This document shows positions 18,412 through 22,794 of a DNA stretch of 64,000 nt, piece by piece. The translations under genes and the position numbers were made by a program. The first letter of the stretch is position 1. Every line of letters starts with the position of its first letter. The notes under the pieces are model-generated. The model saw only the letters and a list, made by a program, of their open reading frames with translations, was not told where the DNA came from and did no database searches. Origin of the DNA: Tritonibacter mobilis (lineage in GTDB: Bacteria; Pseudomonadota; Alphaproteobacteria; Rhodobacterales; Rhodobacteraceae); the NCBI RefSeq assembly GCF_001681715.1, contig NZ_LNWY01000013.1, positions 1 to 64,000 on the forward strand, in the 5' to 3' direction.

Positions 18412-19542
18412 TCACAAGGGTTCGATATCGCCTTGGGCGCGCATGTCGTGGAAAGTCTTCTGCCAAGCGTCAAATGTGCCCGCTGCGATTGACTCTCGCA
18501 TGCCAGCCATGATGTCCTGAAAGTAATGCAGGTTGTGCCATGTCAGAAGCATGCCGGAGATCATCTCGTTCGACCGGAACACGTGGTGCAGATAGGCGCG
18601 CGAATAATTGCTGCATGCCGGGCAGCTGCAATTCTCATCCAAGGGACGCGGGTCGTCCTGATGGCGGGCGTTCTTGATATTGACCACGCCGTGACGGGTA
18701 AACGCCTGCCCCGTGCGACCAGAGCGCGAAGGCAGCACGCAATCCATCATGTCGATACCACGGGCCACCGCGCCGACGATATCGTCGGGCTTGCCGACGC
18801 CCATCAGGTAGCGCGGCTTGTCCACGGGCAGCATGTCGGGCGCATAGTCCAGACAGCCAAACATCGCCTCTTGTCCTTCGCCCACCGCAAGGCCGCCAAC
18901 GGCGTAGCCGTCAAAGCCGATCTTGGTGAGAGCTTCGGCGCTTTCTTCGCGGAAGTCTTTTTCCAGCCCACCCTGCTGGATGCCAAAGAGCGCATGGCCC
19001 GGCCGATCACCAAAGGCCTCGCGCGAGCGTTCCGCCCACCGCATCGACAGGCGCATGCTCTCGGCGATGCGATCCCGGTCGGCAGGCAGCGCGGGGCATT
19101 CGTCAAAACACATCACAATGTCAGAGCCCAAGAGCGCCTGAATTTCCATCGAGCGTTCCGGCGTCAACTCGTGACGCGAGCCGTCGATGTGGGATTTGAA
19201 GGTCACGCCCTTTTCGGTGAGCTTGCGCAGCCCCGCCAGCGACATCACCTGAAAACCGCCACTGTCGGTCAGGATCGGCCGGTCCCAGTTCATAAATTTA
19301 TGCAAGCCCCCCAAGCGGTCGATCCGCTCGGCGGTGGGGCGCAGCATCAGGTGGTACGTATTGCCCAACAGAATATCCGCACCGGTCGCACGCACGCTTT
19401 CGGGCATCATCGCCTTAACGGTGGCGGCGGTGCCGACGGGCATGAAGGCAGGGGTGCGGATGTCGCCGCGTGGTGTATGAATTACACCAGTGCGTGCCTT
19501 GCCGTCCGTTGCTGTCATTTCAAAGTTGAAAAGCTCTGCCAT
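18412..19542 (-). CDS. tgt: tRNA-guanine transglycosylase (queuine tRNA-ribosyltransferase)
   Basis: A 376-residue enzyme that swaps guanine-34 of Asp, Asn, His and Tyr tRNAs for the queuosine precursor preQ1. Substrate motif [12 protein letters not shown], the nucleophile region [11 protein letters not shown] and the zinc site CSCPAC...HH near the C-terminus are all present. The ATG at 19542 ([11 protein letters not shown]) has AGGA 8 bases upstream and is preferred over one nine codons earlier. It stands divergent from the RimB-RimK gene. Length matches the family. Confidence 0.97.
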
Positions 19543-19612
19543 CTCATGTTCCTGCGTCAGTCTGCACACCGCGAGGGCGGTGATTCACCCCTAATGCCAA
19601 GGAGGCGTCCCT

Positions 19613-21028
19613 ATGTCCACAGATGACCCGAACCAGAACCTGCGTCTAGGTTGGGAGGAATGGGTCAGATTGCCCACACTTGGCCTGCCCGCGTTGCGTG
19701 CAAAGGTCGACACTGGCGCGCGGACCTCTGCCCTTCATGCGACTGACATTGAGACCTTCGGCCCCTCCAAGGCCCCCAAGGTCCGCTTTACCGTGCACCC
19801 GATTCCGGGGCGCGATGATCTGCTCATCCCCTGCTCTGCCGAGATCAAGGACCGCCGCGAGGTGACCTCCTCCAATGGGGATCGTGAACTGCGCTATGTG
19901 ATTGAAACCAATCTGGAAATCGGCGGGCAGATCTGGCCCGTGGAGATCACGCTGACCGACCGGCGCGGCATGGCGCTGCATATGCTGCTGGGACGGCAGG
20001 CGCTTACCGAGAACATCTCTGTGGTGCCGTCCGAGCGCTATTGCCAACCGGAGCTGGATTACTCCGTCTACACCACGCCTGCGATCCGCAAAAAGGCCCC
20101 GAACCGCGCGTTGCGGATTGCGGTGCTGAGCCGCGAGGACAATTATTCCACCCGCCGTCTGGTCGAAGAAGGCGAACGCCGTGGCCATTCGGTGGAGGTG
20201 ATCGACACGACGCGCTGCTATATGTCGATCAACGCGTTGGCACCGGAAATCCACTATGACGGCAAGCGTCTGCCCCGCTATGACGCGGTGATCCCGCGGA
20301 TCGGAGCCTCGATCACCCAGTATGGTACGGCGCTGTTGCGCCAGTTTGAGACCATCGGCACCTATTGCGTCAACGGCAGCGCGGGCATCACCGCCAGCCG
20401 CGACAAGCTGCACGCACATCAGATGCTGGCACGTCACAAGATCGGCATGCCCCCCACCGCCTTTGCCGCCTCGCCCAAGGACACCAACGCGCTGATTGAT
20501 ATTGTCGGTGGTGCGCCGCTCATTGTGAAGCTGCTTGAGAGCACACAAGGCAAAGGTGTGGTGCTGGCGGAAACCAAGAAGGCGGCGGAGTCGGTGATTA
20601 CGGCGTTTCGTGGCCTCAAGGCCAACTTCCTCGTGCAGCAATTCGTCAAAGAGGCCGCAGGCGTCGACATTCGCTGTTTTGTGGTGGGGTCCAAAGTGGT
20701 CGCAGCAATGAAGCGATCCGGTGCGGAGGGCGATTTCCGCTCCAACCTGCATCTGGGCGGCAGTGCGGTCTCGGTCCGCATCACCAAGGAAGAGCGCGCA
20801 ACCGCAATCCGCGCCGCGCGCTGCTTTGGCCTTGGGGTGGCGGGTGTCGATCTCTTGCGCTCGGAAACCGGGCCAAAGGTTCTGGAGGTGAACTCCTCGC
20901 CGGGTCTTGAGGGGATCGAGAAGACATCAAACAAAGACATCGCGGCCCTGATCCACGACGAGATCGAGACCAATGTGCGCCCCACGCCCCTACGCAGCCG
21001 CAAGGCGCTGGGCGACGCCGCCGAATAA
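19613..21028 (+). CDS. rimK: Fused RimB-like retropepsin and RimK-type ATP-grasp ligase
   Basis: A 471-residue two-domain protein. Residues about 14-150 match the ATP-dependent zinc protease/RimB retropepsin family, with the aspartyl motif D33-T34-G35 in [11 protein letters not shown] and the later MLLGRQAL. Residues about 165-460 form a RimK ATP-grasp domain: [40 protein letters not shown] and [12 protein letters not shown]. RimK adds glutamates to the C-terminus of ribosomal protein S6; RimB is a separate protein in Pseudomonas, as I recall. Here the two are one chain. An AAGGAGG site precedes the ATG. Whether the target is S6 is not shown. Confidence 0.93.
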
Positions 21029-22431: not shown

Positions 22432-22794
22432 ATGACCGACGCATCCGAACCGCTTGAAGGCACCCCGCTGATTGCGCCCTCCTCCGTGTCCCACTCGCTC
22501 TATGAGCCGGTGGTTGATGCCTGCCGTACCGTCTTTGACCCGGAAATCCCGGTCAACATCTATGATCTTGGCCTGATCTACACGGTTGATATCACTGATG
22601 AAAACGATGTGAAAATCATCATGACCCTAACCGCGCCCGGCTGCCCCGTCGCAGGCGACATGCCCGGCTGGATTGTTGATGCGGTTTCCCCCGTGCCCGG
22701 CGTCAAAAGCGTCGATGTGGAACTCACATGGGAGCCACCCTGGGGCATGGACATGATGTCGGATGAAGCCCGGCTGGAACTCGGGTTCATGTAA
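22432..22794 (+). CDS. sufT: SufT-type Fe-S assembly protein (DUF59/MIP18)
   Basis: A 120-residue protein with all MIP18 hallmarks: DPEIPVNIYDLGLIY, LTAPGCPVAGDM with the conserved Cys, and the end WEPPWGMDMMSDEARLELG. SufT helps mature Fe-S proteins when demand is high. The next gene is an A-type carrier, so the pair forms an Fe-S unit separate from any full suf operon in this window. Confidence 0.92.
   Translation: MTDASEPLEGTPLIAPSSVSHSLYEPVVDACRTVFDPEIPVNIYDLGLIYTVDITDENDVKIIMTLTAPGCPVAGDMPGWIVDAVSPVPGVKSVDVELTWEPPWGMDMMSDEARLELGFM

Follow-up and report, generated by a model that had tools for sequence, protein, structure and literature searches.

The RimBK hybrid of Tritonibacter mobilis, a putative self-contained polyglutamate cycle enzyme whose chain is probably not built on ribosomal protein S6

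In the window, by which we mean the whole 64,000-nucleotide stretch of Tritonibacter mobilis DNA that was analysed, a single gene (rimBK) encodes both a protease that would trim glutamate chains and a ligase that would build them. The questions raised by this locus are whether the two halves really form one protein, and on what such a protein acts. A sequence-only reading had recognised a retropepsin of RimB type joined to a RimK ligase in a single chain, and had proposed as target probably ribosomal protein S6 or another C-terminal tail. The first of these proposals is upheld here. S6 as the probable target is not, and another C-terminal tail may still serve. It should be said at once that the hybrid itself is not new. 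RimBK was described by Little et al. (2025; PMC11957791), who report rimBK in 12% of 2226 rim-containing accessions, the majority of these being from Flavobacteriales and Rhodobacterales. That the two domains are fused, and that Rhodobacterales are rich in such fusions, is therefore already published, which the sequence-only reading had missed.

Reading frame, domains and active-site residues

The gene is one uninterrupted open reading frame of 471 codons, with no internal stops (Table 1). A frameshift or a misread start was considered as the origin of the fusion and can be ruled out, because the frame is fully open, because the ATG is preceded by AAGGAGG, and because 47 of the 149 genomes sampled from the order, all of the 47 within the window's own family, retain this fused layout. 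The T. mobilis genome contains one full-length copy; two extra matches are weak, cover only the ligase part, and have 24% and 28% identity.

Table 1 Features of the rimBK locus, in positions of the window.
Feature	Position	Strand	Basis
tgt, queuine tRNA-ribosyltransferase, divergent, 43 bp from rimBK	18412-19569	-	Pfam; at least 42/47 fused loci
AAGGAGG, Shine-Dalgarno-like, last base 7 bases 5' of the rimBK ATG	19599-19605	+	Sequence
rimBK, RimB-type retropepsin and RimK glutamate ligase in one chain	19613-21028	+	ORF, Pfam, fused frame in 47/149 genomes
RimB / Pfam Zn_protease (retropepsin-like), residues 12-146	19646-20050	+	Pfam
Catalytic D33-T34-G35 motif, same in 47/47 fused proteins	19709-19717	+	Alignment
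LLGR, residues 125-128; L125, G127 and R128 invariant in 47/47, L126 replaced by I in 2	19985-19996	+	Alignment
Linker, residues 147-166	20051-20110	+	Alignment, model
RimK pre-ATP-grasp domain (Rimk_N), residues 167-259	20111-20389	+	Pfam
RimK ATP-grasp domain, residues 263-449; K306, D413, E425 and N427 present	20399-20959	+	Pfam, alignment, fold match
C-terminal tail, residues 455-471; basic RRRK-type end in many fused relatives	20975-21025	+	Alignment
SPFH/Band 7 protein, downstream of rimBK in this genome	21121-22008	+	Pfam
FeS_assembly_P (PF01883) gene, downstream in at least 37/47 fused loci	22432-22794	+	Pfam

Pfam places three domains in succession, with scores of 103.6 bits for Zn_protease (cut-off 27), 134.8 for Rimk_N (cut-off 26.4) and 206.4 for RimK (cut-off 21). 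Among the NCBIfam models, the ligase half passes the RimK equivalog (PRK10446), S6--L-glutamate ligase, with 402.3 bits against a cut-off of 331. The protease half reaches 115.7 bits against the 200 needed for the RimB equivalog NF052261, and is therefore termed RimB-like here rather than assigned as a RimB equivalog; RimBK also scores far under all three RloA cut-offs. In a sequence search of the PDB the ligase half matched the RimK proteins of Pseudomonas and E. coli; the RimB half gave weaker matches, to chains 9g59, 9g58 and 2pma.

AlphaFold2 was used to model RimBK from 33 sequences (mean pLDDT 78.4, pTM 0.61). The model consists of two folded parts and a connecting stretch (residues 133-163) with pLDDT below 50, and how it places one half against the other is unreliable. 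The modelled ligase half resembles RimK crystal structures, with TM-scores of 0.89-0.92 by target length, and all 50 of the fold matches listed for the model fall on this half.

All 47 fused proteins were extracted and aligned. The D-T-G and LLGR motifs that had been noticed within the first 150 residues are indeed there, at D33 and at residues 125-128. K306 and D413 are invariant in all 47 proteins. E425 and N427, which we take to be metal ligands, are present in 46, the exception being genome G146, which has serine at both positions. Loss of catalytic residues from the window protein was also considered, and is ruled out by this alignment, in which they are intact.

In P. aeruginosa RimK the glutamate chain is held by S7, R8, S14, R64, S68, R189 and N262 (PMC10092738). 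The counterparts in RimBK are S173, R174, S179, R229, S233, R354 and N427, each of them kept in 42-47 of the 47 fused proteins. As far as can be judged from the alignment, the ligase half looks well suited to glutamate chains. One position differs. Glu178 of Pseudomonas RimK, which contacts ADP, is glutamate in all 20 of the separate RimKs from the order that were aligned; in the window protein it is glutamine, and among the 47 fused proteins it is aspartate in 30 and glutamate in one, so that ATP handling may differ in the fused proteins.

Distribution, neighbourhood and origin of the fusion

A survey of how often the fusion occurs in the order had been proposed along with the sequence-only reading. 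In our sample of this one family, a PF05618 match is present in 71 of the 149 genomes. It lies in the same open frame as RimK in the 47 already mentioned, which shows that RimBK is no assembly accident; 22 genomes have adjacent separate rimB and rimK genes, two have a RimB-like gene alone, and in the remaining 78 there is no match to PF05618. No genome combines the fusion with a complete separate pair (0/149, where 6.9 would be expected if they were independent, ignoring shared ancestry). This mutual exclusion suggests that RimBK and the separate pair share one job. The fusion occurs together with a separate RimK in two genomes, against 7.6 expected, again ignoring shared ancestry. One of these, G143 (L056/L269, L232), has RimBK alongside a separate-type RimK that stands alone, and no separate RimB was found there. 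The other is G146, in which the fused gene (L016, 1480-2847) has Ser425, Ser427 and an altered ATP loop, and a full-length separate RimK (L268) stands without an adjoining RimB; L016 looks like a natural dead-ligase variant. It is worth adding that another fused genome, G148, carries a second RimB-like gene (L007, 1347-1923) with an N-terminal hydrophobic stretch resembling a signal peptide. This gene may be an RloA-type secreted relative.

The remark that no rimA-like gene is adjacent stands for the neighbours that were run on Pfam, which are TGT, SPFH/Band 7, FeS_assembly_P and Fe-S_biosyn genes, together with one small ORF that has no Pfam match. The numbers of fused loci with tgt (42/47) and FeS_assembly_P (37/47) are lower bounds, because six loci have flanks of only 1.5 kb and four are truncated by contig ends. 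We looked for the same two genes in 30 genomes that lack RimBK (28 without a PF05618 match and two with separate rim genes), and in 16 of them the two lie no more than about 1.5 kb apart. The block thus exists with and without RimBK, which implies that RimBK has been gained or lost at one site; within one genus, it is present in G015 and G114 and absent in G019. The neighbourhood was considered as a clue to function and set aside, since the tgt-FeS_assembly_P block stands without RimBK too.

We used a fused gammaproteobacterial-type RimB to rank a survey of named sequences. Out of at least 590 matches, the 80 that ranked best comprise 73 fused, 6 separate and 1 RimB-only; given the way they were selected and ranked, this split does not measure a frequency. 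The best named plasmid matches to the window protein are from Thioclava (Rhodobacterales), with 67-68% identity. On a Thioclava plasmid (L386, 3986-5356) the annotation of RimBK gives just rimK, S6--L-glutamate ligase, and leaves the protease half unnamed.

A tree of 77 RimK rows has two fused groups, separated by starred branches. One consists of the Rhodobacterales-type fusions and two more rows from the same class, and the other of the Bacteroidota/Microbulbifer/Rickettsiales-type fusions. A second tree of 78 rows had two outgroups, excluding the long-branched L278 and L353 and including E. coli RimK. It requires two changes between the fused and separate states; its outgroup branches are very long and its central fork is unsettled. 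On these trees, one fusion followed by one split (L350) and two independent fusions would both fit. A RimBK from a Candidatus Nitrotoga MAG (L323) is nested in the tree among Flavobacteriaceae, as the result either of a recent transfer or of a misbinned contig.

Viral contigs were also scanned. A whole-protein scan gave no match to RimBK, and a scan with the RimB alignment gave three loci, beside which no RimK was found at the threshold used, two of the stretches being short. In one locus (L354, 3953-5290, on a 147-kb viral contig) a RimB-like retropepsin is followed by EGLEDADEF acidic repeats and cysteine pairs, with no RimK within the 8.4 kb examined. In another (L355, 155-658), the RimB-like gene has a tail resembling the RimBK linker (QPRLHYRVYEQGGR) and ends there. 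The same contig has a terminase-like gene, and the RimB-like gene could be a split or a not-yet-fused form.

Candidate acceptors of the glutamate chain

S6 of the T. mobilis genome ends in RDERDSRRERR, a basic tail with arginine as the last residue. None of the 149 genomes of the order has an S6 ending in glutamate, whether or not RimBK is present. S6 ends in arginine in 35/47 of the fused genomes, 20/22 of those with separate genes and 56/80 of the remainder, and over its last 20 residues the net charge averages +2.3 to +2.5 across all three groups. Glutamate-ended S6 is equally absent from the separate-gene genomes (0/22), so the result is not peculiar to the fusion. By comparison, S6 ends in ADE in Pseudomonas and in EE in E. 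coli, and in some bacteria it is reported not to end in glutamate (PMC11957791). A Pseudomonas S6 with its penultimate Asp replaced by Lys (S6-D139K) was left unmodified by two RimKs in vitro (PMC4741518). In a limited look through open-licence literature, including PMC7343187, we found no published statement on the S6 tails of Rhodobacterales or Flavobacteriales.

S6 tails were also read from 22 RimBK hosts outside the order, leaving aside two MAGs (L293, L301) with no S6 match. S6 ends in glutamate in none of 15 Bacteroidota, none of three alphaproteobacterial or Rickettsiales MAGs and neither of two further genomes from the window's class. Both hosts of gammaproteobacterial type, Microbulbifer L274 and G266 (whose RimBK is closest to that of Microbulbifer), have an acidic S6 ending in glutamate, so that S6 may still serve as the target there. 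Of eight separate-gene genomes from the same phylum, two of them Vibrio, six have a glutamate-ended S6.

Taken together, the basic tails, the complete absence of glutamate ends in the order and the effect of the D139K change make S6 an unlikely acceptor, in the sampled Bacteroidota as well as in the sampled order, and the earlier proposal of S6 as probable target is not sustained. The contrary case, that RimBK modifies S6 here with a RimK half tolerating the basic tail, does have some support: the ligase half exceeds the cut-off of the S6--L-glutamate ligase model, a public Thioclava record gives RimBK that name, and RimB is reported to cut polyglutamate behind a Lys-Arg end, although more slowly (PMC11957791). 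It is conceivable that a RimK whose recognition of acceptors has changed could act on a basic tail. However, the tails are alike with and without RimBK, none of the 149 ends in glutamate, and D139K abolished modification by both RimKs (PMC4741518), and we regard this case as quite improbable. We think it even less probable, to the point of being hardly credible, that the ligase half is dead and that RimBK is just a protease or scaffold. The fused copy of G146, with serine at 425 and 427 and a separate RimK in the same genome, is what such a protein could look like, but it is one of 47, and the window protein retains all of these residues.

A further candidate would be some other protein with an acidic, glutamate-ended C-terminus. 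We scanned the whole genome for gene ends of the form [DE][DE]EE and found only two, ribosomal protein L17 (EAVEDEE) and FliG (KSDEEEE), both of them the ends of recognisable genes. This was a single strict motif in one genome, and L17 alone was surveyed across genomes, leaving aside MAGs L327 and L343 with no L17 match, and reading among the Bacteroidota only those that bear RimBK. Among RimBK genomes of the order, L17 was read in 21 and ends in glutamate in 17 (14/16 and 3/5; in G021, one of these five further fused genomes, it ends in aspartate) and in 14/15 of the RimBK-bearing Bacteroidota, whose S6 does not. Against this, it also ends in glutamate in 6/8 genomes without rim genes and 5/7 with separate genes, as well as in three separate-gene genomes whose S6 ends in ADE. 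It ends in alanine in three RimBK genomes with all of the checked residues (G014, G125, G126), in the two hosts with both RimBK and a glutamate-ended S6 (L274, G266), and in the Rickettsiales MAG L346. L17 as a substrate that tracks RimBK is therefore not supported, its glutamate ends being found also in genomes with separate or no rim genes. From its sequence L17 is a possible acceptor, and an acidic-tailed protein of this kind, L17 or FliG in this genome, is in our view unlikely, if less so than S6.

The proposed cycle and its relation to known systems

The reading that we prefer, and consider probable, is that the window protein is a RimBK hybrid functioning as a self-contained polyglutamate cycle enzyme, with a chain that is most likely not carried by S6. 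Several published observations bear on this. The purified RimBK of D. psychrophila and its isolated RimB part cleave polyglutamylated S6; no glutamylation of Pseudomonas S6 by RimBK is reported as observed, other activity being left open; the synthesis of free poly-α-glutamate by RimK is stimulated by RimB; and RimB cleaves glutamate chains that have reached a length of five or six or more (PMC11957791). A retropepsin active site is made from two copies, and RimK of both Pseudomonas and E. coli is a tetramer (PMC11957791, PMC10092738).

For the window protein we infer the activity, the assembly and the non-S6 acceptor. The RimK half would use ATP to join L-glutamates into α-linked chains. The RimB half, as an aspartic protease, would complete its active site by dimerising with another copy, and would cut the chains once they contain about five to six glutamates. 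A single chain gives a fixed 1:1 ratio of protease to ligase, and the fusion would hold builder and trimmer together, fixing their proximity as well as their ratio. Since retropepsins need two copies and RimK forms tetramers, the expected assembly is a RimK tetramer bearing two RimB dimers. The glutamate chain would be either free poly-α-glutamate or attached to an acceptor other than S6, and we rank both of these as likelier than S6.

The S6 tails constrain a point left open in the published work, in which no glutamylation of S6 by RimBK was seen (PMC11957791). On balance we lean towards the view that in both of the bacterial groups rich in RimBK the protein acts not on S6 but in a different polyglutamate cycle, where the name S6--L-glutamate ligase would be wrong. 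At the least, the label should be applied to RimBK with caution when assigned automatically, there being no acceptor-like S6 in 149/149 genomes of the order and 15/15 Bacteroidota with RimBK.

The nearest known system is the D. psychrophila RimBK DP2392, likened here by its description, which likewise has RimB at the N-terminus and RimK at the C-terminus of a single chain (PMC11957791). Rhodobacterales is one of the two main orders in which the hybrid is described, and the biochemistry reported comes from a member outside it (PMC11957791). RimB and RimK of Pseudomonas are the same two domains encoded by two genes; chains of P. aeruginosa RimK (7qyr) are 60-63% identical to the ligase half of our model, with the residues for the glutamate chain conserved. 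A rimA gene is part of the Pseudomonas locus in some species only (PMC12239564), and the neighbours of rimBK that were run on Pfam do not include one. E. coli RimK has a ligase fold that RimBK is predicted to share (PDB 5zct, 5zk6), and unlike rimBK its gene stands alone. The RloA/RloB/RloC system of P. aeruginosa also brings together a RimB-related retropepsin and an ATP-grasp protein, in one operon (PMC12239564). RloA, however, is a separate protein with a signal peptide (PMC12239564), unlike RimBK, where the retropepsin and the ligase form a single chain.
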